Assembly (NCBI RefSeq): GCF_014202275.1
Contig: NZ_JACHGF010000002.1
Coordinates: forward strand, 62,001-126,000
Direction: 5' to 3'
Source: Rhabdobacter roseus
Lineage (GTDB): Bacteria; Bacteroidota; Bacteroidia; Cytophagales; Spirosomataceae
DNA: 64,000 bases
Below, piece by piece: positions 17,692-47,482 of the stretch. Numbering within the stretch: the stretch's first letter is position 1; each line of letters starts with the position of its first letter. Below the pieces are notes generated by a model that saw only the letters and a list, made by a program, of their open reading frames with translations, did no database searches and was not told the origin of the DNA. Made by a program: the position numbers and the translations under genes.

Positions 17692-17703
17692 AAAATAATA
17701 TCG

Positions 17704-19784: not shown

Positions 19785-19813
19785 TAAGTTAGTAGAATTA
19801 TCATTATATGCAC

Positions 19814-20050
19814 TTAGTTAACATCTTTCAAAATACTATTTAGATCTTTTTCTCTATAAGATTTCTTCAAAGCATAAGCCAGCCTAAGCTTTTCAATTTC
19901 GCGAGAAGTTAAAATTTCCTTTTTATAAAGATATACTAATAACAGTTGTATCAAATTATCAGAACCCATGACCATTTTTTTCTCTATTGGATTCCAAGCT
20001 ATATAGTGCATATAGAAATGACTTAACCTCAAAATTTGTATAAATGTCAT
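19814..20050 (-). CDS. Small protein of unknown function downstream of the cysteine desulfurase
   Basis: This is a 78-residue frame, perhaps shorter if the second ATG (MHYIAWNPIE) is used. Its sequence is mostly helical and charged at the C-terminus (ILTSREIEKLRLAYALKKSY). It follows the desulfurase gene on the same strand by 70 bases and could be co-transcribed. I recognise no family. The coherent amino-acid composition argues for a real gene, but it could also be chance in AT-rich DNA. Confidence 0.4.
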   Translation of the reverse strand: MTFIQILRLSHFYMHYIAWNPIEKKMVMGSDNLIQLLLVYLYKKEILTSREIEKLRLAYALKKSYREKDLNSILKDVN

Positions 20051-20119
20051 GTATCAGCTTATTTGTAAAATAGACCATTCATATCTACACAAGCATCGAA
20101 CACGCGAAATGATCGTAAA

Positions 20120-26755: not shown

Positions 26756-26766
26756 CGTCGATACCC

Positions 26767-28200: not shown

Positions 28201-28228
28201 ACCTTTCCACTATATAAACGTGACGAGC

Positions 28229-29818: not shown

Positions 29819-30118
29819 TTACGGATTCGCCCGGGAGACGGTCACCGAAAGCTCCTGCGCATTTTTAGGAATCCTCTGTTGGCCATCCGGCGCGACGGCG
29901 GGCGAATACACCTGGCAGGCCCGGTCCCCGGGTTCGTCACAGCCCGTGGTAGGGGGTGTTCCGATGTAGTAGTAGTCATCGTCCTCCGAGGCTACGGAGT
30001 AAAAGGCAAAGGCCGCCGCTTGCGTGGTGGGTCGGCTGGTATTCATCGCTACCAACAGGCCACCGCTCAGGAGCAGGGCCAACAGGGATACCCCTTGGGA
30101 TTTAACGAAACGGTTCAT
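29819..30118 (-). CDS. Small secreted protein, DUF6520-like
   Basis: This 99-residue protein has an N-terminal signal or anchor segment (GVSLLALLLSGGLLVAMN), then an acidic tyrosine-rich stretch (SVASEDDDYYYIGTPP) and two cysteines (TTGCDEPGDRACQVY). Small Bacteroidota proteins named DUF6520 have this layout and often occur beside SusC/SusD/TlpA genes, as here. Its function is unknown. It is on the same strand as the lanthipeptide operon but 700 bases away from it. Confidence 0.55.
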   Translation of the reverse strand: MNRFVKSQGVSLLALLLSGGLLVAMNTSRPTTQAAAFAFYSVASEDDDYYYIGTPPTTGCDEPGDRACQVYSPAVAPDGQQRIPKNAQELSVTVSRANP

Positions 30119-31786: not shown

Positions 31787-33022
31787 TCAATAGTTCTTAA
31801 TGGTACGAATGGCTTTTTCCAGCACGGCCACGACGACCTGCTTGTCCCGGTCCTCCACCTCGTAGGCCTTCCTCCGCATGCTGTTCCAGGAGAGGGTTTT
31901 CCGGTGCTGGGTGGAAAGGTGGGGCACCAGCAGCCGGAAGGCCTGGGCCACCGAGCGGACCTGGAGGATCTCGGTGTCCACCAGCGCCCGGACGGCCACC
32001 GCCGTCTGGTCCACCGTCAGGCCCACCGTGGCCCGGAGGGTAGCCTCCCCGGGGATTGGCGGGGGCGTCTCCCCGCCCGCCTTGCTTTTCAGGTAAGCGA
32101 TCTCGGCGGTAAACCAGCGGTCCATCACCGTGGTGACGTCGTCCAGGCCCGGATCAAGGCGGACCCGGGGTTTCCGGTGCAGCTGCTGAAACTGTTTGAA
32201 GCGAAGGAGCAAGCGGTCGAGCTGTTCCGACTCGCTGGCCTGCGCCTGCACTTCCCGGGCTATGCCCGCCGTATAGTACCGCAAGAAGGCCCGGCTGTTG
32301 AAGTTCAGGTAAACCAGCCGTTCCACCAGATGTTCCGACCATCCGCCCCGGGAGCCTCCGCCCCGGGAGCCTCCGCCCCGGGAGCCTCCGCTCGGGGACC
32401 GGAGGGCCTGGTTCTTTTCGACCAGGCACTTTTCGAGCTCGGCCACCAGTTCCTGGTGATAAAATACCTCCCGGAAGGATACCTGGGCGTTCGGGCGATG
32501 GCTGGTAAATCCGTACAAGCCTTCCAGGACAAGGCCGGCGAGCTCCCCGCCGCGGGTCCGCTGCCGTAGTGGCCCTTCCAGGGCCTTGACCCGGGTGTGC
32601 AGGGCCGCTTTGATTTCGGCCAGGTAGGCCGCCGGGACTCGCCCTTCGTCCCCGATGAGCGCTCCCAGTCGCTCGTCGAGAAACGCCAGCAATTCAGCCA
32701 GGGCGTCGGACAGGGCGTGACACGATTGGTGGAAAGCCGCATGGGTTGGACCCCGGGTCCGGTTTTCGTACACCTGATCGAGCAGGATCACCAGGCCGCT
32801 GTGGTAGCTCCGGACCAGCGCCCGAAGCTTGTTGGGGTCCGTCTGGGTAAAAGCCAGGCGTTTAAGGATCGTTTTTTGCCGGTGCGCGTGGGCCCGCGCC
32901 CGGACGGCGATTGTTTCGGCCTCGGCCGGGCTGGGCGCGAGGAAATCATCCCGGGCGGGATTGAGTGCCACCGTCACCACGAAGTCCAGCCATTGAAGGG
33001 GGTATTGCATAACCTTACGCAC
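31787..33022 (-). CDS. RteC-like protein with an in-frame GC-rich repeat
   Basis: This 411-residue protein is mostly helical. The C-terminal two thirds resemble RteC of Bacteroides conjugative elements in order and spacing: a YLNFNSRAFLRYYTAG segment, a helical stretch, a TVGLTVDQTAVAVRALVDT segment, and a serine-rich finish (LSWNSMRRKAYEVEDRDKQV). RteC controls element excision in Bacteroides, but RteC-like proteins are also found outside such elements. Residues near 213-228 (GGSRGGGSRGGGSRGG) come from three copies of a 15-base unit CCCCGGGAGCCTCCG. The gene lies between the lanthipeptide precursor and the AraC gene on one strand, suggesting a regulatory or accessory role. Assignment is tentative. 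Confidence 0.45.
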   Translation of the reverse strand: MRKVMQYPLQWLDFVVTVALNPARDDFLAPSPAEAETIAVRARAHAHRQKTILKRLAFTQTDPNKLRALVRSYHSGLVILLDQVYENRTRGPTHAAFHQSCHALSDALAELLAFLDERLGALIGDEGRVPAAYLAEIKAALHTRVKALEGPLRQRTRGGELAGLVLEGLYGFTSHRPNAQVSFREVFYHQELVAELEKCLVEKNQALRSPSGGSRGGGSRGGGSRGGWSEHLVERLVYLNFNSRAFLRYYTAGIAREVQAQASESEQLDRLLLRFKQFQQLHRKPRVRLDPGLDDVTTVMDRWFTAEIAYLKSKAGGETPPPIPGEATLRATVGLTVDQTAVAVRALVDTEILQVRSVAQAFRLLVPHLSTQHRKTLSWNSMRRKAYEVEDRDKQVVVAVLEKAIRTIKNY

Positions 33023-33154: not shown

Positions 33155-33295
33155 TTAGCCCGCTTTGGTGCAAATGGTGCCGCTGGTCGTGATGGACTGC
33201 TTTCCCTGGGCGGAGGCGCGACCCGCTGGGTTTTCCAGCCGCGCCAGCACGTACGTTTTCAGGTACCGCTTTTGGGGGGTAATGGGCGTTTTCAT
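33155..33295 (-). CDS. lanA: Class I lanthipeptide precursor (46 residues)
   Basis: ATG 33295 gives a basic leader (MKTPITPQKRYLKTYVLARL) followed by ENPAGRASAQGKQ and a core rich in Ser/Thr (SITTSGTICTKAG). Leaders with a lysine-rich start and an aromatic/Leu helix are typical of Bacteroidota class I lanthipeptide precursors. The core has one cysteine and several Ser/Thr, so at most one lanthionine or methyllanthionine ring can form; other dehydrated residues would stay as dehydroalanine or dehydrobutyrine. A longer frame with an upstream ATG exists but breaks this pattern. It is on the same strand as the dehydratase gene, 2.2 kb downstream of it, behind the two-component genes. Confidence 0.7.
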   Translation of the reverse strand: MKTPITPQKRYLKTYVLARLENPAGRASAQGKQSITTSGTICTKAG

Positions 33296-33409: not shown

Positions 33410-34597
33410 TTAAGCGTGTCCGTTGTCCGGCTCAGCGCCTATTTCCTCGGTGGGGTACCGGTCCAGAGGCAGCGAAATGTGCACGGTAAAGACCGCTTCC
33501 TCGTGGCTGATTTCGAACTGATGCTCGCCGGGAAACTTCAGCTCCAACGTGCTACGGATCGTACTCAACCCCAGCCCCGAACCCGCCGGGGCTGGTCCAG
33601 AATCGGGAGGAGGGACGCTGTTGGTGACCGTAAAATGCAGCCAGTCTTTTTCGACCCGACTGGTAATGTCCACAAACGAAGGCAAGTAGGTGGCGTGCAC
33701 ACTGTGCTTGAAGGCATTTTCTACCAAGGTTAACAGCAGCAGAGTCGGAACGCGGTGGCGGGGCTGGACGGGGCCCGTGTGGGTAAAAGCAATCTCGGTG
33801 CGTAACTCGGCGCGCATGGATTCCAATTCGAGGTACTGTTGGATCAGGTGGTGCTCCTCTTCCAGGGGGATGAAAGCCTTCTCGGCCTCGTAGAGGGTGA
33901 ACCGAATCAGGTCGGCGGCCTGGTGAAGGTAGGCCGCGCCGGGGCCGGAAACGGAATCCAGTTCCGTCGCCGTGGCGTTGAAGATGTTGAAAATGAAATG
34001 GGGGGTCAGCAGGGAGCGGAGGGCTTTCAGCTCGGTTTTAGCCTTTTCTTCCTGCCACCGGATCTGTTCCAGTTCGCGCAGAAGCCCGTGTTTCATCATG
34101 TGGAGGCCTATGGGCAGGATTAAAAGCTGAAAATCGACGAGATCGTAAATGAATACCAGCCAATCCCCGCCCGCCCGCTGCGACCAGGGTTTTAGGTAGC
34201 GTTGTCCGATTGATTCGAAAATCGGCGGGAGGTTTTCCAGCCCCCAAAGCAGCGCGTAGCTCTGGTAAAGCAGCGTCGTAATTAGGTGCATAGCCACCAG
34301 GCCGACGGCCAGGGTCGCCCCCAGCCAGGCGACGCTGCCGAGGGGCTTCGGGCCGAGCCGGTATACGACCACCAGGAGGTAGTACAGGGGGATAAAACGG
34401 GCATAGTAGAGCCCATAGGCCCAGAGCAGCTCGGAAGAAGGCCTTTGTTGGGTCCAGGCGGGCACGAAAAAGAGAAGGTGGTACAGGATAAAGCAGGTCC
34501 AGAACAGTACGTGCACGAACCCGCGGTGCCGGGGACTGGTTGGAAAGAGCAGCCCACGATAGGCGCTAAATTGGGACGTTCTTGTGGGCATGGCCAT
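33410..34597 (-). CDS. LytS-type sensor histidine kinase (lanthipeptide locus)
   Basis: This 395-residue protein has four to five N-terminal membrane helices (VLFWTCFILYHLLFFVPAW; VAWLGATLAVGLVAMHLI). A His_kinase domain with the phospho-acceptor histidine follows in LRSLLTPHFIFNIFNATA. The ATPase part has LLTLVENAFKHSV and GSGLGLSTIRSTLELKF. LytS-type kinases signal to LytTR regulators. Its ATG overlaps the stop of the regulator gene upstream (TAATG), so they form a pair. It may sense the peptide made by this locus or envelope stress; the ligand is unknown. Confidence 0.85.
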   Translation of the reverse strand: MAMPTRTSQFSAYRGLLFPTSPRHRGFVHVLFWTCFILYHLLFFVPAWTQQRPSSELLWAYGLYYARFIPLYYLLVVVYRLGPKPLGSVAWLGATLAVGLVAMHLITTLLYQSYALLWGLENLPPIFESIGQRYLKPWSQRAGGDWLVFIYDLVDFQLLILPIGLHMMKHGLLRELEQIRWQEEKAKTELKALRSLLTPHFIFNIFNATATELDSVSGPGAAYLHQAADLIRFTLYEAEKAFIPLEEEHHLIQQYLELESMRAELRTEIAFTHTGPVQPRHRVPTLLLLTLVENAFKHSVHATYLPSFVDITSRVEKDWLHFTVTNSVPPPDSGPAPAGSGLGLSTIRSTLELKFPGEHQFEISHEEAVFTVHISLPLDRYPTEEIGAEPDNGHA

Positions 34598-35376
34598 TAG
34601 CGGGTCAGTAGTCTTAGAATCATCTCCCGCCGGAGCCGATCGGCAATGAGGTACTCGCTGCCGTCGATCATTTTGACCATATTGCCCTCGATCGTCTTAA
34701 CCGCATGGCGGTTGACGATGCAGGAACGATGGATGCGCACAAAGTCCGTGTCCGGCAGCCGCTCTTCCATCCCGCCCAGGTTTTCCCGAACCAGGAGCAT
34801 TCCCTCCGTATAGTAGATCTTGACGTAGTCTTTCAGGGCCACCAGGGCGTAGATATGCTGGTGGGGGATTCGGTGAAACTTTTTGTCCGATCGAAGCCAG
34901 GCATACCCCTGGCGCTCCGCACCGGTACCGGCCGGCGCTCGGCGCTCGCCAGGTGAGTCTTCGCTTTCCCCCGCGACGGGATCGTCCGGGAAATGCGGCT
35001 GGTGTTTGACACTGATTTTTAAAATCGTCTTGATAAAGCGGGGCCAGGAAACGGGTTTGAGCAAAAAATCCGTGACATCGTACTCGAACGCATCCAGGGC
35101 GTACTCCTTGTAGGCCGTAACCAGAATGACGTGGGGGCGGGGCGGGGGCAACGATTTGAGCAGGTCCAGGCCGGTCAGCCCCGGCATTTCTACGTCCAGG
35201 AAGATAATATCGGGGCGGTGGTTGACGATGATTTCCAGGGCCTGGGGGACGTTGCTGCAGCACCCCAGCAGCTCGAGCCACGACATTTCGCTGATCAGCC
35301 GGGCTAGGGCCTGCTGCGCTTTGGGTTCGTCGTCTACGACCAGACACCGCAAGGAAGAAAAGAGGTCCTTTTTCAT
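34597..35376 (-). CDS. LytTR-family response regulator (lanthipeptide locus)
   Basis: Residues 8-125 form a receiver domain (CLVVDDEPKAQQAL; IIFLDVEMPGLTGLDLL with the phospho-aspartate; VILVTAYKEYALDAFEYDV; DFLLKPV). The C-terminus is a LytTR DNA-binding domain (LVALKDYVKIYYTEGM; FVRIHRSCIVNRHAVKTIEG). A linker of about 35 residues rich in Gly, Ser and Pro separates them. The gene lies 120 bases downstream of lanB and is coupled to the kinase gene, so it likely controls this operon. LytTR proteins usually bind paired 9-base direct repeats; I did not find a clear pair by eye. Confidence 0.9.
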   Translation of the reverse strand: MKKDLFSSLRCLVVDDEPKAQQALARLISEMSWLELLGCCSNVPQALEIIVNHRPDIIFLDVEMPGLTGLDLLKSLPPPRPHVILVTAYKEYALDAFEYDVTDFLLKPVSWPRFIKTILKISVKHQPHFPDDPVAGESEDSPGERRAPAGTGAERQGYAWLRSDKKFHRIPHQHIYALVALKDYVKIYYTEGMLLVRENLGGMEERLPDTDFVRIHRSCIVNRHAVKTIEGNMVKMIDGSEYLIADRLRREMILRLLTR

Positions 35377-35497: not shown

Positions 35498-38400
35498 TTA
35501 CTTGGCGGGGCGTGGTGGTGAGGAATGGGGGCGTTTGGGGTAGGAATGGTAATATTTTTTTAGGTAGTAGGAAAGAACCAATTCCTGTTGCCGAGCCTGC
35601 GCCAGGAATAGCCGGTTGAAGAACAGGTGCAGGTGAGAGGCCACCACCGCCGGATCCGCCGGTTCCTGCTGACCCCGGCGGACGCGACGCACCGCTCTTG
35701 AGCGCCGGGCTATTACCCGCCCTACCCGCCCGCCGCTTGCCGCCAGGAGGGATTCGATGCGCTGCCGGTCCCGCCGGTAGTGGGCGTCCAGCTGCCCTTT
35801 CAGGGCCGTATCGCCCCGAAACTCCCGGAAAAGAGCGTCGAAGACCCGTTCCACCAGTGTCCCCCGGGCTGCGTGGTCCAGCCCCCAGTCGTTTAGCAGC
35901 CGATCGGCCCCGGCCAGCCCCAGCAACCACCGGGGCCAGCCCGTCAGATCCAGCAGGGAAATGACCGCTTCACTGTCCGCGTGAAAAAGGGATTCGGTCC
36001 GTTCGTAGGGCAGACCGGGGTACCGTTCCAGTTCCCGGCGGTAGGTATCGTACTGGATGCTATGGAGCCAGCCTTCCTCCCACGCGCGGTGCAGCTCCTG
36101 CGTGAGCCCACGGGTGGCTTCGGGGGCTTCCGCCGGGTAAAACCGGATGCGGAGGTGCGGTTCGGGGTCGGCATACCGCACAAAAAACCACTTTTCTACC
36201 GACTTCGCCCGGACCAGTGCCCGCATGAGCGGCCCGATTCGCTCCCGGAGCAACCGGTCTCCGGTTTGGGGGCCGCAGTAGACTTTGACGTAGGTCCAGC
36301 CACCCCCCCCCGGGGGGAAATCGCGCTGTACGGTTTCCGCGCCTCCCGAAGGAGTGCTTCTCGGCGTGGCGACGCCCGGCGAGGCGACGCTCGGCGCGGC
36401 GGCTCCCGGCGTATTTTTTGCCTCCCTAAAGGGGAGCACGATTTCGTGGGTGAACCCGTTTAAGAGCCCGGTGGACGATTCCGGAAATTCAACCAGCCGG
36501 ATCCGGTCTTGGGTCCGGAACAGCGCGTGTAATGACTCCCGGGAACGGGCCGAATCGTGGTCGATCAGCAGTTCCCGGTCTCCCTCCACGAACTGGGTGT
36601 AACGCGGAATGCCGAGCTTTTGACGGACCGCCTCCCATTCGTGGGCCCACTCGCCCTCGCGAGCGACCGTGGCGACGCCCGGAGCGGCGGCTCCCGGCGT
36701 GGCGACGCCCGAAGGAAACAACCGGGGAAAGTGGCTTTTGGTGATGGTCCAGCGGGCCCGGGCCAGGATCCAGTGCCCGTACTGCACCCGGGGTAAAAAT
36801 ACCCGTTCCGCCAGGTGGCCCCACTGCCAGCCGTAGCCGGTACCCTGTCCGGCTACGTCGCAAAGGAACCGGTACATCGGCAGGCCCTGGGTGAAGTTAT
36901 GGGCCGTCGTCAGCCGGGGAATGACCCGCTTGCCCAGCCGTCGGCTCCTTAGCTGGACCTGGTTGTCCCTGACGGAGACCAGCAGGTCCGCGGGGGAAAT
37001 GCGCCGTTCGGGCGGCAGGTGGCTACCGCCCAGGTAGACGATCTCATAGTCGGTGAGGTGCGGGCGCTGAAGGAGGTTTCCCAGGCGTGGTTCGGGCAAA
37101 TGGGCGATTTCGGCAAAAACGACCTCCGGCTCCTGCTGCGCGCGCGTGGCGGCCGCCACGCGCAGCTGCGCGGCCAGACTGGGGTCGGCCTCTCCGAACC
37201 GGCCCAGCAGCTCCAGCCCCGAAGCCCCTCCCATCGCCCGGGCCAAAAACCGAAAATCGCCCCGGTCCAGGGCCTCTGGGGAATCGGTTAGCAGGCTTCC
37301 CAGCCAGTACAGGCCGTCGCCCGGGTGGGACCCCGTCGGGTCCCACCCCGCAGGGGTCATCCCGGCGCAATCCTCATCCGTGAGCGTTACGCACCGCGTG
37401 GGTTCCAGCCAGGCCCTTTCCGCCAGGTTTTCCCGTAGCCGCGCGAGGGCATCCTCCGTGGGGTAGGGCCGCTCGGGGCGGGTGGGAAAGACGAGGTCTG
37501 CCAGCAGGGGGAGCTCCTCGCAACTACCGGGCCGTACCGGGCCGTACCCGATCCCCTCGGTGCTATCCAGGGCTTCGGGCAACGGTACCTCCTGGCCTTC
37601 AAACCGGCGCAAAAAGGCGTCCCGAAATTGGTCCAACTCCCGACTGCGGCCCATTTCGAGCAGCGGCCGCACCGTTTCAAACTCCCGGGCCAGGACTTGC
37701 ACCCACCGGGCGCTGAGCGACCACCGTCCCGCCAAAACCAGATCCGTTTGGACCACCGGGCGGTTCTCCGGATTTTGGATGTAAGGGGCGAGCAACGCCT
37801 GAAGGCGCAGACCGGCGTTCAGCGGGGCTTGGGTTGCTTCCAGGAGCTGGTGGACCTGGTTGAGCAATTTTTTCTCCGATCCCGCCCCTTTCAGGGTCAT
37901 GAGCTTCGCTCGGAGAGACGCAAAAGGGTCGCGGCCCGTGACCGTGAACCGCCACTCGCTTTCGAGCAATTGGGCTTGGATCAATTCCCGAATCAGCTTC
38001 CTGGCCCGGGCCGGGGGTAGGCCGGGCCCAAGGGCCTGCCCCAGTTCCCGGGCGGTTGCTCCCCCTTGGGCCCGGCGCATCGCGCGCTCCACTTCCGGTC
38101 CCGGCTCGACCGCCGTGAGCGTGTGGAGGGTTCCCGTGTGGGTGTATTTCCGTTCGGTGTACCGGTAGATCCCCTGCCCGAAGGTCAGGCTGGAGTTGAG
38201 TTCAAACCGCAATTGCGCCTGGATGGTGGGCTTGGCTTCGAGCCTCCGGATCAGGTCGTGCAGGGCGGCCGGGTCCAGCCGCCGGTAGCGCCGGAACGCT
38301 TCCGAGCCGGCGGGCTCCAGGACGGTCCGCCCGGATAGGGTCCCGGTGGCTACCCCGGCAAATAGACCGAAAGGGGTGGCGCGCGTGCACAAGCGGACGA

Positions 38401-38653
38401 GGTAGTGGGTAAGGGCCGATAACACCTGCCGTCGGTTTTTGTCTGGTTGGCCGTCGGTGCGAAGGCCCCGGAAGGAGGCATAGAGACCCGGCGAGGCGAG
38501 GAAGAGGGCTTCCGCGAGCCAAGGGTCGGAAAATAGGGTTAGCAGGTGTTGCTCCGCCAGCTCCGGACTTTGCATGGCGTGGAAAGTCCGGAGGGTTTCC
38601 AGGGGGAGCAGGGGCCTTCGAAGCAGGAAAAAGCCGTCGGGGATCAGAGACAT
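35498..38653 (-). CDS. lanB: Class I lanthipeptide dehydratase
   Basis: At 1051 residues this is a full-length LanB. The N-terminal glutamylation domain is recognisable from the start (FLLRRPLLPLETLRTFHAMQ), TRATPFGLFAGVATGTLSG and YRRLDPAALHDLI. The C-terminal elimination domain begins with WTYVKVYCGPQTGDRLLRER and contains KWFFVRYADPEPHLRIRF, as in SpaB_C or thiopeptide-type domains. These enzymes use glutamyl-tRNA to dehydrate Ser and Thr of a precursor. Two Gly/Ala/Pro-rich loops, near residues 648-663 (GVATPGAAAPGVATV) and 747-767, derive from GC-rich repeat DNA inserted in frame. It is the first gene of the minus-strand operon and is divergent from the LanC-like gene. Confidence 0.9.
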   Translation of the reverse strand: MSLIPDGFFLLRRPLLPLETLRTFHAMQSPELAEQHLLTLFSDPWLAEALFLASPGLYASFRGLRTDGQPDKNRRQVLSALTHYLVRLCTRATPFGLFAGVATGTLSGRTVLEPAGSEAFRRYRRLDPAALHDLIRRLEAKPTIQAQLRFELNSSLTFGQGIYRYTERKYTHTGTLHTLTAVEPGPEVERAMRRAQGGATARELGQALGPGLPPARARKLIRELIQAQLLESEWRFTVTGRDPFASLRAKLMTLKGAGSEKKLLNQVHQLLEATQAPLNAGLRLQALLAPYIQNPENRPVVQTDLVLAGRWSLSARWVQVLAREFETVRPLLEMGRSRELDQFRDAFLRRFEGQEVPLPEALDSTEGIGYGPVRPGSCEELPLLADLVFPTRPERPYPTEDALARLRENLAERAWLEPTRCVTLTDEDCAGMTPAGWDPTGSHPGDGLYWLGSLLTDSPEALDRGDFRFLARAMGGASGLELLGRFGEADPSLAAQLRVAAATRAQQEPEVVFAEIAHLPEPRLGNLLQRPHLTDYEIVYLGGSHLPPERRISPADLLVSVRDNQVQLRSRRLGKRVIPRLTTAHNFTQGLPMYRFLCDVAGQGTGYGWQWGHLAERVFLPRVQYGHWILARARWTITKSHFPRLFPSGVATPGAAAPGVATVAREGEWAHEWEAVRQKLGIPRYTQFVEGDRELLIDHDSARSRESLHALFRTQDRIRLVEFPESSTGLLNGFTHEIVLPFREAKNTPGAAAPSVASPGVATPRSTPSGGAETVQRDFPPGGGGWTYVKVYCGPQTGDRLLRERIGPLMRALVRAKSVEKWFFVRYADPEPHLRIRFYPAEAPEATRGLTQELHRAWEEGWLHSIQYDTYRRELERYPGLPYERTESLFHADSEAVISLLDLTGWPRWLLGLAGADRLLNDWGLDHAARGTLVERVFDALFREFRGDTALKGQLDAHYRRDRQRIESLLAASGGRVGRVIARRSRAVRRVRRGQQEPADPAVVASHLHLFFNRLFLAQARQQELVLSYYLKKYYHSYPKRPHSSPPRPAK
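36361..36412. repeat. GC-rich repeat unit inside lanB
   Basis: Several variants of the 10-12 base units GGCGTGGCGACGCCC and GGCGGCTCCCGG follow one another. They keep the lanB frame and add a Gly/Ala/Pro-rich loop. A second copy lies at 36669-36712. Confidence 0.6.
36669..36712. repeat. Second GC-rich repeat unit inside lanB
   Basis: This is the same unit family as at 36361-36412 (GTGGCGACGCCC, GAGCGGCGGCTCCCGG, GTGGCGACGCCC), again in frame. It encodes GVATPGAAAPGVAT in a likely surface loop. Confidence 0.6.
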
Positions 38654-38870: not shown

Positions 38871-39998
38871 ATGGGTATTTCTTCCGTTTTCGACCCCGTC
38901 CCGTTGGGCCAGATCGAGGGGGTTTGTCGGCGAATGCAGGCGCAGCGGCACCGGGAGCCTTCGTTTGGGCTGGACTACGGCTGCCTGGGCCAGGCCGTAT
39001 TCTATTACCTGTACGCCAGGCATACGGACCAGGAAGCGTTTCTCCGGGAGTCCGCCGACCAGTTTGACCGGGCCTGTGCCTGCGTCAATACCGATCGATC
39101 CTTCGTCATTCCCCGGGATTTCTGCGACTTGGGAGCGGTGGTCCATTACCTGGCTGAAGGGGGGGCGCTAGCGGTGGAACCCGGCTATTTTCTGGGGGAC
39201 GTGGATGCCTTTCTGCACCAGGGGCTGGAGCAGGCTCTCCGGCGCGGGGCCGTTTCGGGTTTTACGACCGGTGCCGCTGGCTACGGACTGTACTTCCTAC
39301 ACCGTGCCCGCTACGATCCGGCGCGTTTTGCGCCGACCCTTGAGCGCCTGGCCGACTGGCTGGCGGTGTTTACCCTTAAGACGCCTTTGGGGTGTTGCTG
39401 GCCTTCGACCCGCCACCAAACGGTAACGGGCGTGGACCTGACGCTGGCCTACGGGCAGGCTTCGGTGGTGCTGCTGTTGGCCGCGATGGTGGAGTTGGGT
39501 TTTGCCGATCCCCGAAAAGTCCGCTCGGTGGTCGCCGGAGCCATTGCCTTGATTGATCACTGTCTGAAGGTGACCCAAAGCCATACCGTGCGGGTATCCC
39601 TACCGGAAGGTCACCTGGGTACGGCCTACGCCCTGCTCCGGGCCGGGCTCGTGTTTGACACCCCCGCGTGGAAGGCGCTGGGCGAATCCCTGCTGCGGCA
39701 CTGTGCGCATAGCTGCCAGGATTCCCGGCGGAAGCTTCCCCGCGCCGGAATCCGCGGGGGCGTGGCGGGGGCAACCCTGGCGTTTGCGCGTATCCACCGC
39801 CTCACGGACAATGCGCTCTACGGGGAGGCCGCCCGCCAATGCCAGCGCATCTTACTCCGTCAGACCAAGCAGGACGAGGACGGGAATACCCCTTCTCCGG
39901 GGGAAGTAAGTGACGGGAAGGCTCTTTCGGGGGTGGGAGCCACCCTCATCCGCTCATCCGGACAACTTGACTTTGACCGACTCATTTGGCTGATTTAG
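38871..39998 (+). CDS. lanC: LanC-like protein lacking the zinc ligands
   Basis: The 375-residue protein follows the LanC plan: repeated double-glycine turns (SGFTTGAAGYGLYFL; RGGVAGATLAFARIHRLTDN) and a C-terminus (LSGVGATLIRSSGQLDFDRL) like the LLxGxxGIGL...WDRLLLL ending of Bacteroidota LanC cyclases. In active LanC the zinc is held by a Cys in WCYG and a Cys-His pair in CHG. Here the equivalent places read LPEGHLG (Pro 245 for the Cys) and GIRGG (Ile 294-Arg 295 for Cys-His), and the usual HG motif reads AYG (194). The protein has therefore probably lost catalysis. It is divergent from lanB and may serve as a scaffold or be decaying, although the frame is intact. Confidence 0.75.
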   Translation: MGISSVFDPVPLGQIEGVCRRMQAQRHREPSFGLDYGCLGQAVFYYLYARHTDQEAFLRESADQFDRACACVNTDRSFVIPRDFCDLGAVVHYLAEGGALAVEPGYFLGDVDAFLHQGLEQALRRGAVSGFTTGAAGYGLYFLHRARYDPARFAPTLERLADWLAVFTLKTPLGCCWPSTRHQTVTGVDLTLAYGQASVVLLLAAMVELGFADPRKVRSVVAGAIALIDHCLKVTQSHTVRVSLPEGHLGTAYALLRAGLVFDTPAWKALGESLLRHCAHSCQDSRRKLPRAGIRGGVAGATLAFARIHRLTDNALYGEAARQCQRILLRQTKQDEDGNTPSPGEVSDGKALSGVGATLIRSSGQLDFDRLIWLI

Positions 39999-41099
39999 AG
40001 GCTGTCCGGGTAAGGGGTTTGGCTCCTTTTCAAGACCTGGGTATCGACCTCCCACGGTGTTTTCGGATTTTTGGAAGCGGAAACGGGCTTTTGCTTACGC
40101 AAGACTGAACAGGCAGAGCGCGCTTCCTCACGGTAGCGCCGCTCACGCCTCCGCAGCCCTCGCATTATCACCTTCGTTCACCGCCGCATTCTACTTCCCT
40201 TCCCCTTTGCCATCCGTCAAAATGGGCCTTTTGAGCCCGACCTGGATCCTCAACGTTTGGTGAATAATCTGGATCGGGTACCTTCTTGGAGTAGAGCGGG
40301 TTTCCTTGTTTCTGCTTAGGCCTTTTATGGGGCCGGTATTGACGTTGATTTGTTGCGTCGCGCGGGTTCCGCCCTGATCCTCCCCCTTGATGACAGTGGG
40401 TCCATCCCGCACTTGCTCCTATCGCCGAGGGGATCCTTGCCTGCGGCCAGGAAGGGCGGCATCCTGTCCAACCGGCGCTGGGAATGGCCTTCCTCCAGGT
40501 ACCACAAGCCCGAAAAAGGGCCTGCGTTCACCTCGTAGAATTGGTGTGGGTGAAAGTCATCGGTGTAGTAAAGCGGCTATGGAAGGGAGTGCCAGGGCAA
40601 AAAAACCAGCTGGACTCCAGTTGGGGTTTAACTATTATATACACTATACTAATGCTGCTACCGAAGCAGCTGCACAAATCAATCCGCAAATATCAGTCCA
40701 AAAAATCACCCCGGTGAAAGCGTTACCAGGGTGATCCAAATGACAACGTTACAAAACTTCAACTTCCTGAAGTCAAGTACAAAGTAAGGCAAAAAGGGTT
40801 TACTTCAGGGGAAAAAACCTCAGTAACCCTTCCATATCTATTTACTACCAACCCCCTATTTTAGGGGTTGTACCTTCTTGTTGCGCTCGCTACCTTTGGC
40901 TTGGTGATGCCTCTGGGCAGTTCCAAATTACAACGTTACAGGCACGCCCCATGAGCTCACTCTCCTACCGCTTGAAGGACCTCCATCTCTTTTACGTCCC
41001 GCTTAAAAAAGAAAAAGCCTGGGCACCATGGCGCCCAGGCTTTCCGACATATATCCACACCATATAAGATGCAAATATAAATTTTTTTGGTTATTCTCC
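39999..41099. other. Gene-free stretch between the lanthipeptide locus and the mobilizable element
   Basis: I find no convincing gene. Short frames near 40350-40540 and 40560-40735 have no recognisable motif. A small stem AACCCC/GGGGTT is at 40849-40868. This is probably decayed DNA of the mobile element or of an older insertion, since the next 1.3 kb holds clear pseudogenes. Confidence 0.45.
41014..41043 (-). terminator. Strong intrinsic terminator, leftward
   Basis: AAAGCCTGGGC (41014-41024) pairs perfectly with GCCCAGGCTTT (41033-41043) around eight bases. Read on the minus strand the stem is followed by TTTTCTTTTTTAAGCGG. It would end transcripts coming from the decayed minus-strand frame at 41100-41440. 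Confidence 0.7.
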
Positions 41100-41440
41100 C
41101 TACACCTTCCGGGGCGTATTCATCCGTAGGTTGCTCATCCGCACGTAGCCCTCGTTGAGCTTGTTGATCCGGCACGTGGCCAGATTGTCCATCAGCCGTT
41201 TGGGCGCTTGCCGAAGACGCCAATGGCCTCCCGCCGCCTCTCAAACGTTACCCTGGCTGCGTTGCCGGTCCCGGTGAGCGTCTCCTCCTTCTTGCGGTAC
41301 GGCGGTGTCATCAGGATCATAACGGCGTTGAGGACCCGGACGGGGACCCGGTCCCGCCTCAGTTCCAACGCCCACGATCCGTTCCGTATCAGGGGAAGCA
41401 TCCCATGCCAATAGAACGAGGTATCGTTGTTTTCCGGTGG
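41100..41440 (-). pseudogene. Decayed minus-strand reading frame of unknown family
   Basis: On the minus strand a frame reads ENNDTSFYWHGMLPLI, WALELRRDRVPVRVLNAVMI and RKKEETLTGTG up to about 41205. After a frameshift, protein-like sequence resumes (RLMDNLATCRINKLNEGYVR, MSNLRMNTPRKV) to a TAG at 41100-41102. The composition in both pieces looks like real protein. I do not recognise the family; in position it would belong to the mobilizable element. The strong terminator 57 bases downstream fits its former 3' end. Confidence 0.45.
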
Positions 41441-41493
41441 GCTCCCTACTTTTGAGACACCCTTTTAGGGAATAGTGAAGGTCAGCGAGAAGC

Positions 41494-42363
41494 ATGATGG
41501 AATTCAGCCACGCACGGGCGTCCCTCGAGCAGGTACGCCCGAGGGATATGGTGCACTAGCTGTCCCGGTTAGGGTACGAACCCGTCCAGGTCAGAGGCCA
41601 CGACTATTGGTGCCATTCTCCCGTTCCGATCGAAAAAAACGCCTCCCTTTAAGATCAACCGGTGGCTTAACCGGTAGTACGATCACGGGGAACAGCCGAG
41701 CGGTAACGTGATTGACTTTGGCATCCGCTACTACGGTTGCTCGGTCGGGGCCTTTATCCACCGGGTACACGGCGATCTTTCTCCTCACCCGCGGCGGGAG
41801 CCCCCTCCCCTCCACCCGCTAAGCCCCCGGTGCGAATCCGGGGGCAGCGGATAGAGCCGATTACGGCCCCTGCCCTCGGATGACAGGTACACTATAGACT
41901 CCATAAGCAACGCTACTACGCCCTTGGCCTCCCCAACGATTCGGGCGGCTTCGAGCTGCGGAACGCCTACTGTTAAACTCAGGACCTCCCCCAAGGATAT
42001 CACCACGCTTGCCGTGAGGGTCTTCGAAGGGTTCATGGACTTCTCTTTCCTACCGGATGATTGCCCCGCATGACCTGAGCGATTTCGTCATTCCCAATTC
42101 CGTCGCTTTTTTCCCGCGCCCGCCCTTTCCTGGAGCGGCACCAAAGGGTTCACCTGTATCTAGACTGGGGTGATACCGGTTGGCGCATCAGGAGGGAAGC
42201 GCTGGCGGGTTCTTTCGTATACTGCGACGAAAGCGGGCTTTACCAGTCCTACAAGGACCTGAACGAATGGCTGACCGCCGGGGCTCTTTCGGCCGAGCCG
42301 CCAATCCAATCGCCGCACTCGGAAAACCAACAGGCACCCCAATATCCGCCCAAGCCCCGGTAG
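41494..42363 (+). pseudogene. Decayed CHC2 zinc-finger/Toprim DNA primase
   Basis: The start (ATG 41494; MEFSHARASLEQVRPRDMVH, TAG, LSRLGYEPV) is followed by a CHC2-type segment: GHDYWCHSP, then FRSKKTPPFKINRWLNR, then YDHGEQPSGNVIDFGIRYYG. A later part reads YYALGLPNDSGGFELRNAYC, KDITTLAVRVFEGFMDF and DLSDFVIPNSVAFF. The Toprim end reads RVHLYLDWGDTGWRIRREAL, then CDESGLYQSYKDLNEWL, to TAG at 42361. Following the protein requires at least four frame changes and passes at least three stops. Such primases support replication of Bacteroidota plasmids and mobilizable elements. The element has therefore lost this gene recently enough for its identity to be clear. Confidence 0.8.
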
Positions 42364-42828
42364 ACAAATCCCCAAGGCCGGAGGCTTCGGATCTGAACCC
42401 ATTCACCCGGGACATCCGTTGATTTGGTCGGTCGGATTGCCTTAAGCGCAATCGGCAAGATGTACGGTTGTATCACGCTCCGCCCGTGCTCCAACCGAAT
42501 CTTGCCCCGCCGTTGTGCCCTCGGAACTCGGGCGGCGGGGAGGCTTAGGGAGAAGGGAGGGATTAGGGGTATGAAAAGACCTTAATCGGGAGGGTGGCTA
42601 GGGTTTGCCATGGCCCCTTGGGGAACCACGCAGGAGCGGCGGCTGGGGTAGCGTAAGGGATTCGCCGTAGGGAGCCTTCGGGGAGGGCTCAGTTAGGTCG
42701 AATGCCCAGGTGACCCGGATCAAATTCGGCGAGGTATAGGAAAAACGAAATGCCGCCGCTATCTTAACCGTTCGGAGTCTGCCTGGTCCTGGCCTTGGTA
42801 GACCGGTTGAACGCGAAATGGCTATGTG
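42364..42828. other. Intergenic stretch before the mobilization genes
   Basis: These 465 bases hold no recognisable gene. The region immediately upstream of relaxosome genes usually contains oriT, and a nick site may be here, but I could not identify a defining inverted repeat by eye. Confidence 0.35.
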
Positions 42829-43218
42829 ATGAAAGCAGAAAACAACCGTAATCGGTGGCTGCACCTGCGCCTCACCGAGCAGGAGTACGCCTCCCTCCAT
42901 CAGGAGTATGCCCGGACCACGGACCGGAAACTTTCTGACTTTGCCCGCCGAAAGCTCCTGGGCAAGCCCGTCACGGTGCTCCACCGGAACCAATCGCTGG
43001 ACGGGATAGGCGAAGAACTGGGTCGCCTCCGGATGGAGTTACGGGCGGCGGGCCATAACTTCAACCAGGCCGTCAAAAAGCTCCATACCCTGCGGGGGGG
43101 GCACCAGATCGAGGCTTGGCTACTTACCTACGAAACCCAGCGGGAGCAGCTTTGCCGGCAGGTAGAACGGGCCGGGAGCTACCTGAAAACCCTGGCGGGA
43201 CTATGGTCGCGCGAATAG
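42829..43218 (+). CDS. mobC: MobC-like relaxosome accessory protein
   Basis: This basic 129-residue protein starts MKAENNRNRWLHLRLTEQEY, a ribbon-helix-helix-like N-terminus. It contains SDFARRKLLGKPVTVLHRNQ and LRRELRAAG-like sequence (RLRMELRAAGHNFNQAVKKL), the typical MobC pattern. MobC binds near oriT and helps the relaxase open the DNA. A GTG one codon upstream is an alternative start. The gene overlaps the relaxase gene by 16 bases. Confidence 0.75.
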   Translation: MKAENNRNRWLHLRLTEQEYASLHQEYARTTDRKLSDFARRKLLGKPVTVLHRNQSLDGIGEELGRLRMELRAAGHNFNQAVKKLHTLRGGHQIEAWLLTYETQREQLCRQVERAGSYLKTLAGLWSRE

Positions 43219-44453
43219 GCATCGGCAAAAACCTGAGGGCGGTCCTGCTGTACAACGAAGGGAAAGTGGCCCGGCAGGAGGCGACCCTGCTCGAAGCCGG
43301 CTACTACCCAAAGGAGGTCGCGGGACTGACCTTTCATGAAAAATGGGCCCGGCTTCAGCAGCGGATGAGCCTTAACCCGCGGGTCAAAGCCAACGTTCTG
43401 CACATCAGCCTTAATTTTGCGCCCGGTGAAAACCTCCCGCCGGAACGGTTGACGGACATTGCCGTCCTCTACCTCGACAAGATCGGTTTTGCGGACCAGC
43501 CCTTTTTGCTCTACGAGCACCACGATGCGGCCCACCCCCACGTCCACCTGGTCACGACCAATATCCGGGCGGACGGCCGTCGGATCAGCCTGCATAACAT
43601 TGGTCGCATCCGCTCGGAAAAGGCCCGGAAGGAAATCCAGGCGCAGTTCGGGTTGGTGAAAGCGGAAGACCGCCCCCGGCTCGGCTACGAGCCGCCGCCG
43701 GTACGGGTCGAGCCCGCCGCCTACGGGAAAGCGGAAACCAAACGAGCCCTGAGCCAGGTGCTTCGGCACGTCTTGCCCACCTACCGGTACAGCTCCCTGC
43801 CGGAGCTCAACGCGGTGCTGCGCCAGTACCAGGTCCGGGCCGACCGGGGAAGTGAAGATTCCCGCCTTTATCAAAAGGGAGGACTGGTCTACCGCATCCT
43901 GGATGCCGCCGGGAATCCGGTGGGGGTGCCCATGAAGGCGAGTGCTTTTTCGTTTAAGCCCACGTTAACGTACCTCTCCGGGCGGTTTGCAGAAAACCAG
44001 GCCACCAAACGAAACTACCGAGCAAGGCTTAAAAATACCATTGATCTGGCCCTGCTCGAGAAGCCGACCTGGGCCACGCTGTCCCGGCAGTTGGAGCACG
44101 AAGGCGTCAGGCTGGTGGAGCGTAGCAACGACCAGGGACGGGTCTACGGGCTGACCTACGTGGATCACCGGACACGCTGTGTCTTCAACGGCAGTGAGTT
44201 GGGGAAGCCGTACACGGTCCAAGGTCTTCGCGCCCGGTGCGGGTCGGTGCCCTTGACCCAGCCGCCCCGGGTTTCGGTGACCCCGCCGAGCCAGGAGTCC
44301 TCGCCCCGGCTGCCTGGCACGGACTTCACAGATCGTTCGCGGGACGACGGGCTTCTGGAAGCGCTTACCCTGCCCCTGCCGGATCCGACCGGTGTCCCCT
44401 GGCCCCTCCGGAAAAAAATGCCCCGAAAGCGAAGAAGAATTAGCCAACCCTAA
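43203..44453 (+). CDS. mobA: Relaxase/mobilization nuclease (MobA/VirD2-type)
   Basis: I chose ATG 43203 (MVARIGIGKNLRAVLLYN); a longer frame from 43116 overlaps mobC too far. The relaxase domain in the first 200 residues holds the metal-binding three-histidine motif EHHDAAHPHVHLVTTNI (H111, H113, H115). A catalytic tyrosine is expected in the first 40 residues; Y17, Y34 and Y35 are candidates. The protein nicks oriT and pilots the strand into the recipient, using the transfer machinery of a helper element. The rest of its 416 residues is basic and helical with a Pro-rich end. The coupling-protein gene follows after 12 bases. Confidence 0.85.
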   Translation: MVARIGIGKNLRAVLLYNEGKVARQEATLLEAGYYPKEVAGLTFHEKWARLQQRMSLNPRVKANVLHISLNFAPGENLPPERLTDIAVLYLDKIGFADQPFLLYEHHDAAHPHVHLVTTNIRADGRRISLHNIGRIRSEKARKEIQAQFGLVKAEDRPRLGYEPPPVRVEPAAYGKAETKRALSQVLRHVLPTYRYSSLPELNAVLRQYQVRADRGSEDSRLYQKGGLVYRILDAAGNPVGVPMKASAFSFKPTLTYLSGRFAENQATKRNYRARLKNTIDLALLEKPTWATLSRQLEHEGVRLVERSNDQGRVYGLTYVDHRTRCVFNGSELGKPYTVQGLRARCGSVPLTQPPRVSVTPPSQESSPRLPGTDFTDRSRDDGLLEALTLPLPDPTGVPWPLRKKMPRKRRRISQP

Positions 44454-44465
44454 ACGGATACCACC

Positions 44466-46436
44466 ATGCAGGAGAATCAATACGCCCTGGGTAAAATTCT
44501 GGACCTGACCCGGATGCTAGCCATCGTGCTGCTGGGGCTTCACTTCTATTACTATGGCTACACCGCCTTTGCCGGTTGGCAGCTCGTTTCCGATTTCAGC
44601 GACCGGTTATTGGAAAACGTGGCGCGGACGGGTTTGTTTGCCCGCTTCCACCGTTCCAAGGTCCTGGCTCTGGGCTTGCTTCTGGTATCGCTACTCGGCA
44701 TCAAGGGGAAAAAGAAGGAGAACTTGCCGGTCTGGACCGGGCTGGGCTACACCCTAACCGGAATGGCTATCTACTTTGCCGCCTCCCTGTTGTGGTACCT
44801 GCCGCTGTCGGCTCAGGGGGTGACGGTTGCCTACCTGGCGGTGACGACGGTTGGCTTCGTCCTGGTGCTGATGGGAGGGACCCTGCTCTCCCGCGTGATT
44901 ACGGTTCGCCTGGAGGAGGATGTCTTTAACCGTCAGAATGAAACCTTTCCCCAGGAAGAACGGTACCTGGACAATGCGTTTTCAATTAACCTTCCGGCCC
45001 GGTATCGGCTCCGGAACCAGACGCGCAAAAGCTGGATCAACGTCATCAATCCTTTCCGGGGACTGCTGGTCCTGGGCTCGCCCGGAGCCGGCAAGTCCTA
45101 CTTCGTTATTCGGCACGTGATCACCCAGCATCTGAGCAAAGCCTTTACGATGTTTGTCTACGATTTTAAGATACCGGACCTTTCCGTGGTTGCCTACAAC
45201 GCGTTTCTCCGGTACCGACACCGGTATGCTAAACCACCGGCTTTTTATACCATCCATTTTGACGACCTTAGCCGTAGCCACCGCTGCAACCCCCTGGAGG
45301 CGGAAGGGATGCTCGACCTGACCGATGCCGCCGAATCATCCCGCACCATCCTGCTCGGACTGAACCGCGAGTGGATCCGACGTCAAGGTGATTTTTTCGT
45401 CGAGTCGGCCATTAACTTCCTGACGGCAGTGATCTGGTTTTTGCGGAAGTTCGGCCACGGCCGGTACTGCACCTTGCCCCATGCCATCGAACTGATGCAG
45501 CTGGAATACGGCAAACTGTTCACCATCCTGCGGGCCGAAAAGGAGATCGAAGTGTTGATCAATCCTTTCGTGACGGCCTATCGGAACGGCGCGATGGAAC
45601 AACTCGAAGGCCAGGTCGCCTCGGCCAAGATCGCTTTGGCCCGGCTTTCTTCCCCCCAGCTGTACTACGTGTTGAGCGGCCGTGATTTTACGCTGGACAT
45701 CAACAATCCGGACCAGCCCAAGATCGTTTGCATGGGCAATAATCCCCAGAAGAGCCAAATTTACGGTGCCGTGTTGTCCCTGTACGTGAACCGGCTGGTG
45801 AAACTGGTCAACCAAAAGGGGAAAGCGAAATGCAGTCTGGTACTGGATGAGTTCCCCACGATTTACCTTAACCACATCGACGGCCTGCTGGCCACGGCCC
45901 GTTCCAACCAGGTGGCTACCACGCTGGGCCTCCAGGACTTTAGTCAGCTTCGGAAGGATTACGGCAGGGAACAGGCCGAGGTGATCATGAACATTACGGG
46001 CAATCTCATCGCGGGCCAGGTCACGGGCGATACGGCCAAACAGCTGTCCGAGCGGCTCGGAAAGGTCATGCAGGACCGTACCAGCCTCTCCGTGAACCGG
46101 ACCGATACGTCCGTGAGTAAATCCAAGCAGTACGATTATGCCATCCCGGCTTCCCGCATGGCTACGCTCAGTTCCGGGGAATTTGTGGGGCTGGTGGCCG
46201 ACAACCCGGATCAGAAAATAGACCGAAAGGCGTTTCATGGCGCGATTGTCAATGATCACCGGGCGCTAAAAAGGGAGGAGGCCGCCTACCAGCCGCTGCC
46301 GGTCATCCGGCCCGTGGACGATGCGCAGGTACAGGCCAACTACCTTCGGATCAAGGAAGAGATCCAGGACCTGGTCGACAGTGAGCTGGAGCGGATCCTG
46401 CAGGATCCGGGGTTGGCCCATTTGGTGGTAAAGTAG
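44466..46436 (+). CDS. TraG/VirD4-type coupling protein of the mobilizable element
   Basis: Two or three N-terminal membrane helices (IVLLGLHFYYYGYTAFAGW; GMAIYFAASLLWYLPL) precede a large cytoplasmic ATPase domain. The Walker A loop is LVLGSPGAGKSYFVIRHVI near residues 199-217. The Walker B region is CSLVLDEFPTIYLNHIDGLL near 458, followed by TARSNQVATTLGLQDFSQL, typical of VirD4/TraG proteins. At 656 residues it is full length. These proteins bring the relaxase-DNA complex to a type IV secretion channel. No channel genes are in the window, so the element is mobilizable rather than self-transmissible. Confidence 0.85.
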   Translation: MQENQYALGKILDLTRMLAIVLLGLHFYYYGYTAFAGWQLVSDFSDRLLENVARTGLFARFHRSKVLALGLLLVSLLGIKGKKKENLPVWTGLGYTLTGMAIYFAASLLWYLPLSAQGVTVAYLAVTTVGFVLVLMGGTLLSRVITVRLEEDVFNRQNETFPQEERYLDNAFSINLPARYRLRNQTRKSWINVINPFRGLLVLGSPGAGKSYFVIRHVITQHLSKAFTMFVYDFKIPDLSVVAYNAFLRYRHRYAKPPAFYTIHFDDLSRSHRCNPLEAEGMLDLTDAAESSRTILLGLNREWIRRQGDFFVESAINFLTAVIWFLRKFGHGRYCTLPHAIELMQLEYGKLFTILRAEKEIEVLINPFVTAYRNGAMEQLEGQVASAKIALARLSSPQLYYVLSGRDFTLDINNPDQPKIVCMGNNPQKSQIYGAVLSLYVNRLVKLVNQKGKAKCSLVLDEFPTIYLNHIDGLLATARSNQVATTLGLQDFSQLRKDYGREQAEVIMNITGNLIAGQVTGDTAKQLSERLGKVMQDRTSLSVNRTDTSVSKSKQYDYAIPASRMATLSSGEFVGLVADNPDQKIDRKAFHGAIVNDHRALKREEAAYQPLPVIRPVDDAQVQANYLRIKEEIQDLVDSELERILQDPGLAHLVVK

Positions 46437-46468
46437 AGGGAGAAATGCGCCTGAACAAGCCTTTCGGG

Positions 46469-47185
46469 TTAGGAACGAAGGGACTTTTTGTGCTGGTCCA
46501 GCCACCACTCCAGCTGTTCTACCACCCGAACGGCCTCTTTTCCCGGGTGGTTTTGCTGTACATAGCGGACGAACGAGGCTTGGGTATCCTGCTGCTCCCA
46601 TTCCAGGTTGGTTAGAACCAGATCCGGCCACGGCTTGACATGCCGGGTGAAGGCATGGAGTTCCAGGTACGGAGGGGCTTGGGACAGGTGGGTGGTGAGC
46701 TCGGCGTACAGGGATGGGGCCATCACCCGCTCGGCTTCCCGGAGCAGGTCAAACAGAACGAAGGGAGGGTTTTCGTGGGCTAGGGCCTTCCCGAAGTTGG
46801 GGGCTCCTTTCGTGTCCAGGAACTCCTGGAGATAGGTCCGAAAGGCGACTTCGGTGGCCACACAGAGATCCATACCGTAAAAGGAGTAGGCTTTTTTGAA
46901 ACGGTCCAATGAAAAAGCATCCTGGCATTGTTTGACCACGTACCTCAGCAGGGCGATTTCTCGCTCGATGACAAACGCGAGGGTAGGGGGGGAATCCTTC
47001 GGGTTACTGGCCTGCGCAAACCGGGGGTGGGAAAAGAGCTCGAACGCGCTGCTCTTAAAGAAGCGGGTTTTGCGGGCATGGGTCAACTGCACGTAGAGCG
47101 GATACGTGGATTTTCCGTGAAAGGAAACGGCTTTCAACCGATCGTTGAAATACGTCCTATAGCTGATTTTTGACGCCCTTTTCAT
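46469..47185 (-). CDS. Unknown protein with an arm-type DNA-binding-like N-terminus
   Basis: This 238-residue protein begins MKRASKISYRTYFNDRLKAV, then FHGKSTYPLYVQLTHARKTR. It resembles the arm-DNA-binding domain at the start of Bacteroidota tyrosine integrases (a beta sheet contacting arm sites). The catalytic tyrosine-recombinase domain is absent; the remainder is helical. It is convergent with the coupling-protein gene inside the mobilizable element. It might bind element ends or regulate excision, but no function can be assigned. Confidence 0.5.
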   Translation of the reverse strand: MKRASKISYRTYFNDRLKAVSFHGKSTYPLYVQLTHARKTRFFKSSAFELFSHPRFAQASNPKDSPPTLAFVIEREIALLRYVVKQCQDAFSLDRFKKAYSFYGMDLCVATEVAFRTYLQEFLDTKGAPNFGKALAHENPPFVLFDLLREAERVMAPSLYAELTTHLSQAPPYLELHAFTRHVKPWPDLVLTNLEWEQQDTQASFVRYVQQNHPGKEAVRVVEQLEWWLDQHKKSLRS

Positions 47186-47316
47186 GCGGATTCGCGTTAA
47201 GAGGGTAAAGATAGTATATTGTTTTGCTAGATATGGATTTATATAAACAAATTACTACCTTAGTGGGGTGATTGAGCCCTGAGGAGGAAGGAATGGGATC
47301 AGAGAGGAGGTGCATC

Positions 47317-47457
47317 ATGAAGCAATTAAGCCCCGAGTGGGTAAGGGATTTCCTGCGCCAGAAAGGAAGAGAAATAACCGTGGAGGAAGCGGCCATGATT
47401 TACGAATGGCTGCGAAAAGTAGCCTTCTTGGCGGTCGGGCACTACCTCCGGACTTGA
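47317..47457 (+). CDS. Small conserved-looking protein upstream of the serine recombinase
   Basis: From ATG 47317 this 46-residue protein reads MKQLSPEWVRDFLRQKGREI, then TVEEAAMIYEWLRKVAFLAV. It has one amphipathic helix and a hydrophobic C-terminus. Similar tiny frames commonly precede large serine recombinases in Bacteroidota, as far as I recall, and it lies 25 bases before the recombinase gene. Its job is unknown; it could be a recombination directionality or regulatory peptide. Confidence 0.55.
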   Translation: MKQLSPEWVRDFLRQKGREITVEEAAMIYEWLRKVAFLAVGHYLRT

Positions 47458-47482
47458 CAAACCACGCAAAGAACAAAAGGAT

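Follow-up and report, generated by a model that had tools for sequence, protein, structure and literature searches.

A LanC-like protein without a zinc site stands beside LanB and a one-cysteine precursor in Rhabdobacter roseus

Introduction

What can a LanC-like protein do for its LanB when every residue of the zinc site has gone? A locus of Rhabdobacter roseus (Bacteroidota, Cytophagales, Spirosomataceae) raises this question. We analyzed a stretch of 64,000 nucleotides (hereafter the window; assembly GCF_014202275.1, contig NZ_JACHGF010000002.1, positions 62,001 to 126,000 of the forward strand), and coordinates refer to the window unless another locus is named. In LanC enzymes, zinc activates the Cys thiolate and the His of an HG motif protonates the enolate, as described in the accessible part of PMC9934072. 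An earlier note, made from the sequence of the window, had claimed that a LanC-like protein with an intact frame has lost all zinc ligands here, and had suggested that it may be a non-catalytic partner of LanB, or that rings may form spontaneously or not at all.

Results

A LanC fold without zinc ligands

The lanC-like gene (38871–39998, plus strand) encodes a stand-alone protein of 375 aa without the lyase-kinase-cyclase fusion of class III LanKC, and its frame is intact as had been claimed, being open throughout from the ATG at 38871 to the stop at 39998. Pfam LANC_like matched the protein with 33.0 bits against a cut-off of 23.2, the match spanning residues 241-344 only, and the NCBIfam LanL, LanKC and LanM models all matched below their cut-offs. 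A sequence search of the PDB with the protein alone returned nothing significant (best E 0.095). A 19-row profile of its relatives aligned MadC (7e-30), NisC (2e-18) and the LanCL proteins of the PDB. AlphaFold2, given the window protein aligned with 12 others taken from named genome loci, produced a model with a mean pLDDT of 83.3 and a pTM of 0.86. Foldseek gave LanCL2, MadC and LanCL1 as the top PDB matches of this model, with NisC at rank 11, and a second structural aligner gave Z scores of 28.7 for MadC, 27.9 for CuvL, 27.6 for NisC (rmsd 3.3, 337 aligned residues), 26.8 for LanCL1 and 20.4 for ThurKC. By these scores the fold of the model is that of LanC, and the predicted structure is an alpha/alpha-toroid, which bears out the fold that the earlier note had recognised and had proposed to compare with NisC.

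The ligand columns were read in an alignment with 18 relatives and in a profile alignment of 96 LanCs; NisC residue numbers and roles follow the accessible parts of PMC9889658, PMC9934072 and PMC10604976. The 19-row profile alignment set NisC YDVIEG (Asp141), AHG (His212), WCYG (Cys284) and ICHG (Cys330-His331) on the columns used. Both alignments placed Pro245 (codon 39603–39605, plus strand) at the first zinc ligand, the cysteine of WCYG (NisC Cys284), and Tyr194 (39450–39452, plus strand) at the catalytic His of the HG motif (NisC His212), in agreement with the earlier claims. The CHG pair had been given as Ile294-Arg295, which is one residue early, because GIRGG aligns with GICHG; the correct pair is Arg295-Gly296 (39753–39758, plus strand; NisC Cys330-His331). 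This offset leaves the conclusion of ligand loss unchanged, since Pro245, Arg295 and Gly296 occupy the three ligand positions. The Asp141 equivalent is missing as well, columns 128-130 being without Asp in 15 of 15 clade members, and the first-ligand loop is deleted in 4 of the 15. Arg241, which we take to correspond to NisC Arg280, is retained by the window protein and by five others of the 15, a point in favor of a cryptic cyclase.

All three ligands are kept in 59 of the 96 aligned LanCs, and all 59 of these keep the HG His, so the loss goes beyond chance drift of a variable site; the full triad is absent from 37 of the 96, counted with readable ligand columns. That the LanC-like protein is not a zinc cyclase is well supported by the alignments, because the three ligands, the catalytic His and the Asp141 equivalent are gone and the first-ligand loop is gone in four relatives.

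The proposed substitute ligands are not conserved as a set

C175, C176, H230, C231 and C278 had been named by the earlier note as residues that might be placed to bind zinc instead. We checked these on the sequence of 15 clade members, in which Cys or His occurs at column 175 in 14, at 176 in 3, at 230 in 1, at 231 in 6 and at 278 in 10. Only column 175 is steady, so no conserved substitute set exists among the five, and they were rejected as a set on the basis of conservation. When every Cys and His of the window protein was checked in this way, just three columns kept one or the other residue in 14 of the 15 members, namely 51, 69 and 175 (His51, Cys69 and Cys175), and these could have a function. 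Their conservation speaks for a zinc bound elsewhere, at a site built of other Cys/His residues. In the AlphaFold2 model, however, His51 is at the end of the first inner helix (residues 38-52) and the outer helix that comes next (residues 55-74) contains Cys69; the toroid topology would put both away from the helix starts that bear the NisC ligands. We consider such a relocated site improbable.

Relatives share the loss

Back-translated patterns of the single protein found no close relatives, and an 11-row alignment used as the query found nine loci. A search of 149 related genomes gave matches in 17, the window's own genome included, and the closest relative in this search (48% identical, from Cytophagaceae bacterium SCN 52-12) had lost the same residues and was encoded beside the same divergent lanB, followed by a regulator and a kinase gene. 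Profile searches matched 64 of 222 family genomes and 63 of 390 order genomes, two sets that overlap. The LanC table draws on the window and 74 fetched stretches, which together gave 97 LanC ORFs; 96 were kept, L136 being dropped as a gapped row, and the table excludes three LanCs read later (L183-L185). Because the stretches were picked from the stronger matches, with weaker ones mostly left out, the LanC frequencies reported here hold for this sample only. LanC-like ORFs without the triad were also observed at L183:7054-8145 and L184:7057-8148; the stretches fetched around them showed no match to LanB, a kinase or a regulator.

On a careful tree, the 11 rows of the window's group formed one side of a branch with 100/100 support, and the clade of the window protein consists of Spirosomataceae, mostly Dyadobacter. 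The zinc-less state required three changes on this tree, two of which were forced by supported branches. A quick tree showed one clade of 30 zinc-less rows (SH-aLRT 99) and, elsewhere, a second zinc-less group comprising L031, L113, the second copy of L130, L135, L143 and L145. Four tandem Dyadobacter copies in the window clade retained the first Cys and the HG His and carried Leu-Phe at the pair. Homologues beside the same LanB type, which the earlier note had proposed to inspect, share the loss: the proteins of the window, L021, L119, L120, L110, L111 and L117 are without all three ligands.

The lanC-like gene belongs to a module with lanB, regulator and kinase genes

Across a gap of 218 bp, the lanC-like gene is divergent from lanB (35498–38653, minus strand), the product of which matched Pfam Lant_dehydr_N and Lant_dehydr_C. 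Also on the minus strand are the genes for a LytTR response regulator (34597–35376) and for a His_kinase/HATPase_c sensor kinase with three hydrophobic segments (33410–34597), both identified by Pfam and found in the same place in related loci. The order lanC-like, lanB, LytTR regulator and kinase recurs in L021, L110, L111, L117, L119 and L120. The module contains no recognisable transporter or protease gene. A 411-aa protein without a Pfam match (31787–33022, minus strand) is a possible accessory, its homologues adjoining the module in L120 and L185 and the lanB of L139; its membership is doubtful because homologues were not seen in other loci.

Several other features were observed in the window. 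To the left of the module, TonB-dependent receptor, SusD-like and thioredoxin-like genes lie at 23459-29743, and a secreted-looking peptide of 99 aa at 29819-30118 has a weak DUF6520 match (E 0.23, below the cut-off). No convincing ORF was seen at 40000-42800, and just right of the lanC-like gene, at 42826-49309, are mobilisation genes, for a MobC-like protein, a relaxase, a YWFCY/TraG-type coupling protein and a large serine recombinase. A stretch of low GC at 12473-21247 gave matches to SspB, SspC, SspD and SspA (phosphorothioation-type defence), and also encodes a kinase-like protein and a DUF-type protein that matches NsnA.

A conserved precursor peptide with one cysteine

A gene at 33155–33295 (minus strand) encodes a precursor peptide of 46 aa, MKTPITPQKRYLKTYVLARLENPAGRASAQGKQSITTSGTICTKAG, which has one core Cys and ends in ITTSGTICTKAG. 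When a profile of ten other precursors was run against the 672 ORFs of the window, this peptide was the sole significant hit (E 2.5e-8; next 0.6). A one-Cys peptide of 46-50 aa follows the kinase gene in six of the six window-type loci that reach there, the window included; L021 was left out of this count, its contig ending inside the kinase gene. Cys42, Thr36, Arg19 and Leu20 are invariant across 11 aligned precursors, and the position four residues before the Cys is Ser in 14 of 16 precursors and Thr in the remaining 2. A five-residue Ser-x-x-x-Cys ring would resemble ring A of nisin. The invariance of the Cys speaks for a product that contains a thioether or depends on its thiol.

With an E limit of 1e-15, the precursor profile matched 15 of the 222 family genomes, 11 of which are the profile's own rows and had originally been found through LanC; the four new genomes are G194, G199, G211 and G222. 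A zinc-less LanC lies within 7 kb in all 15, and in the four new ones zinc-less lanC, lanB, regulator and kinase genes all lie within 7 kb of the precursor. Weaker matches (G230 and G275, and second ones in G189, G205 and G209) were mostly partial or leader matches, and the profile did not list, among these genomes, the second module of G208 (L185), which has a one-Cys core.

Leaders of the related precursors fit LxLxKx5L, the motif of Bacteroidota class I lanthipeptides (PMC7268733). The leader in the window, RYLKTYVLARL, is a loose fit, and the model NF038153 did not pick it up even with an E limit of 10. Over the whole genome of R. roseus, this lantibiotic leader model gave nothing above its cut-off of 22, the best score (18.1 bits) falling at a second LanB locus. 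That second LanB locus (L041:7808-13124, contig C14) has a LytTR regulator and a kinase but nothing that matches LANC_like, and its candidate precursor, at L041:10988-11122, contains no Cys.

Both LanB and the zinc-less protein are maintained

As a reference we took 30 LanBs, all from loci with a zinc-type LanC only, and the 50 columns conserved among them at 97% or more. The window LanB retains 48 of these columns, and the LanBs of six other window-type loci retain 49 or 50.

Selection was measured between L151 (Dyadobacter sp. SG02) and L155 (D. soli), for which dS is about 1. The zinc-less lanC gave dN/dS of 0.077 (NG86) and 0.086 (YN00), and lanB 0.112 (NG86) and 0.127 (YN00); values for the regulator, the kinase and the 50-codon precursor were 0.054, 0.048 and 0.146. 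The lanC pair of the window and L021 is 47% identical with dN/dS of 0.10 at saturated dS. Outside L151/L155, six gene pairs, with ratios of 0.10-0.15, carry little weight, as their dS values (2.4-4.5) are saturated.

These data bear on whether the LanC-like protein is a decaying relic of a former cyclase. The extreme loss of the site would agree with decay, and the G222 (L181) copies of lanB and lanC are both broken across frames. Against this, the window and the other members read have open frames, and the L151/L155 ratio of about 0.08 was obtained at a dS of about 1. The relic reading was rejected on the dN/dS of this zinc-less pair, and we regard it as very improbable. Because the LanB columns are kept, dN/dS is low and the first-ligand loop is eroded, the sequences indicate that the dehydratase side is intact and that the LanC-like side is maintained without its chemistry.

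Tandem LanC pairs and the kinase link

LanC genes less than 200 bp apart were classed as tandem. In the sampled Cytophagales, 17 of 17 tandem pairs combined one C-C-H LanC with one zinc-less LanC, and in each of them the zinc-less gene came first (5'). These loci are L022, L023, L028, L095, L100, L102-L109, L123, L124, L128 and L133; outside the 17 are L030 (two zinc-type LanCs with a 436 bp gap) and L118 and L129 (two zinc-type LanCs further apart). Where read, the precursors of the tandem loci usually had several Cys residues, and many of their leaders ended in GG.

In four Dyadobacter loci (L103, L104, L107 and L108) a zinc-type LanC stands beside a zinc-less one with the same precursor, which leaves room for ring closure in R. 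roseus by a zinc LanC from another part of its genome. However, this genome is 99.98% complete, and LANC_like finds no second gene in it with an E limit of 0.001; neither does the 19-row profile at 1e-10, 8 of 14 candidates having been scored. We give a distant zinc LanC next to no credence.

A kinase/regulator pair was nearby for 16 of 20 solo zinc-less LanCs and for 6 of 42 solo zinc-type LanCs (Fisher 7.7e-7), although on the tree this link amounts to about three changes, and a test on independent pairs had 2-3 pairs and gave p 1. Solo zinc-less LanCs without the link are those of L027, L029, L130 (first copy) and L139, and zinc-type LanCs with it are those of L035, L093, L101, L112, L114 and L115. 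In the second zinc-less group, candidate precursors without Cys adjoin a zinc-less LanC and a kinase/regulator pair (L031:8812-8961, L130:16933-17082 and L143:9777-9923); these were picked by reading, not by profile. If they are the precursors, no thioether could form there. The same group has one-Cys precursors with the same spacing in L135 and L145, and a one-Cys candidate in L113.

Discussion

We hold with moderate confidence that the LanC-like protein of R. roseus is a metal-free LanC-fold partner (a pseudo-cyclase) of LanB, in a module of lanC-like, lanB, LytTR, kinase and one-Cys precursor genes. This reading is preferred because zinc/His chemistry is impossible in the way described for LanC enzymes, and because the residue pair of ThurKC is absent from the clade. 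Among the options of the earlier note, the non-catalytic LanB partner fits best, because the genes stay together, LanB is conserved and a zinc-less pair (L151/L155) is under purifying selection. The precursor, the sensor pair, the clade and the tandem pairs are additions to that note.

In such a module, LanB would dehydrate the Thr-Thr-Ser core of the precursor, and the LanC-like protein, without a zinc site or acid-base residues, would hold LanB, the dehydrated core or both. The single Cys may then add, without zinc, to the dehydrated Ser/Thr four residues upstream, with ring closure brought about either by the substrate alone or by its being confined on the LanC-like protein. The small modified peptide would likely be exported and then read by the adjacent sensor kinase, as the gene neighbourhood suggests, and the sensor pair of the module suggests a possible signalling role. 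For nisin and maddinglicin, the accessible part of PMC9889658 describes complexes of LanC with LanB and binding of the leader by LanC, and by analogy we take the LanC-like protein to retain the part of a LanC that docks.

The protein might instead be a cryptic cyclase, as the conserved precursor Cys suggests that ring closure still matters. Other residues might still catalyze it independently of metal, like class III LanKC domains: ThurKC makes (Me)Lan/labionin without zinc and has Ser726, Phe770 and Asp771 at the ligand places, as described in the accessible part of PMC10604976. The invariance of the Cys and the strong selection on the L151/L155 LanC-like pair are in keeping with such an enzyme. 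However, the Phe-Asp pair that is important in ThurKC is absent, and the class III replacement of Cys-His by Phe/Tyr/Met plus Asp does not describe Arg295-Gly296. The pair columns vary across the clade (R-G, T-S, Q-R and L-T; L-F in the four tandem copies; L-S, H-A, Q-H and Q-Y in further members), so there is no common catalytic pair. The loss of the first-ligand loop in 4 of the 15 members and the candidate precursors without Cys in three zinc-less loci of another clade also speak against it, and we judge metal-independent catalysis rather unlikely.

The metal-free partner that we favor differs from the known systems it resembles. With the class I enzymes NisC and MadC it shares the alpha/alpha-toroid fold and a stand-alone gene that neighbors lanB and a precursor containing Cys, but it is without the C-C-H triad, His212 and the Asp141 equivalent. 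Class III domains are the classic zinc-less case in the accessible parts of PMC7268733 and PMC10604976; in ThurKC a LanC fold (Z 20.4 to the model) likewise is without zinc ligands, whereas the window protein is stand-alone, is partnered by LanB instead of a lyase-kinase and has no Phe/Asp replacements. LanB with a triad-less cyclase is already tabulated in print: the 'B-Unk' synthetases of a 2024 cyclase survey combine LanB with a cyclase without a defined zinc triad, with 14 predicted peptides in Table 1 and single-Cys peptides set apart as a class (PMC11251773, accessible part). In the accessible part of that survey no residues are named and neither a kinase/regulator module nor tandem pairs were found, and 'Bacteroid' and 'Cytophag' are absent from its main text. 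LanC-like proteins of Bacteroidales also are from Bacteroidota and lack the triad, but in the accessible part of PMC10352776 they were never seen with LanB and are thought to be closer to endoglucanases, whereas that of the window adjoins a conserved LanB and a precursor. CA_C0082, described in the accessible part of PMC10301443, is a degenerate LanM-like enzyme without a zinc motif that is tied to peptide signalling through an agr system, a tie that the window module may share; it has also lost its dehydratase residues, whereas the window LanB is intact. Our literature search found no description of tandem zinc-type/zinc-less LanC pairs or of the kinase-linked module, which does not prove that none exists.

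The locus offers a natural and conserved test case of what use the LanC fold is to LanB without zinc, be it leader docking, core holding or steering of LanB. Its one-Cys precursor is a very small substrate for asking whether a class I lanthionine ring closes without a catalytic metal. More tentatively, and with some doubt on our part, Cytophagales may keep a dedicated non-catalytic LanC paralogue, which would work with a zinc LanC in multi-Cys clusters and solo with LanB in the window-type module, there for a one-ring or linear S-x-x-x-C dehydropeptide pheromone sensed by the adjacent LytTR pair. The 17 tandem pairs suggest that LanC may act as a catalytic/pseudo pair in many Bacteroidota.
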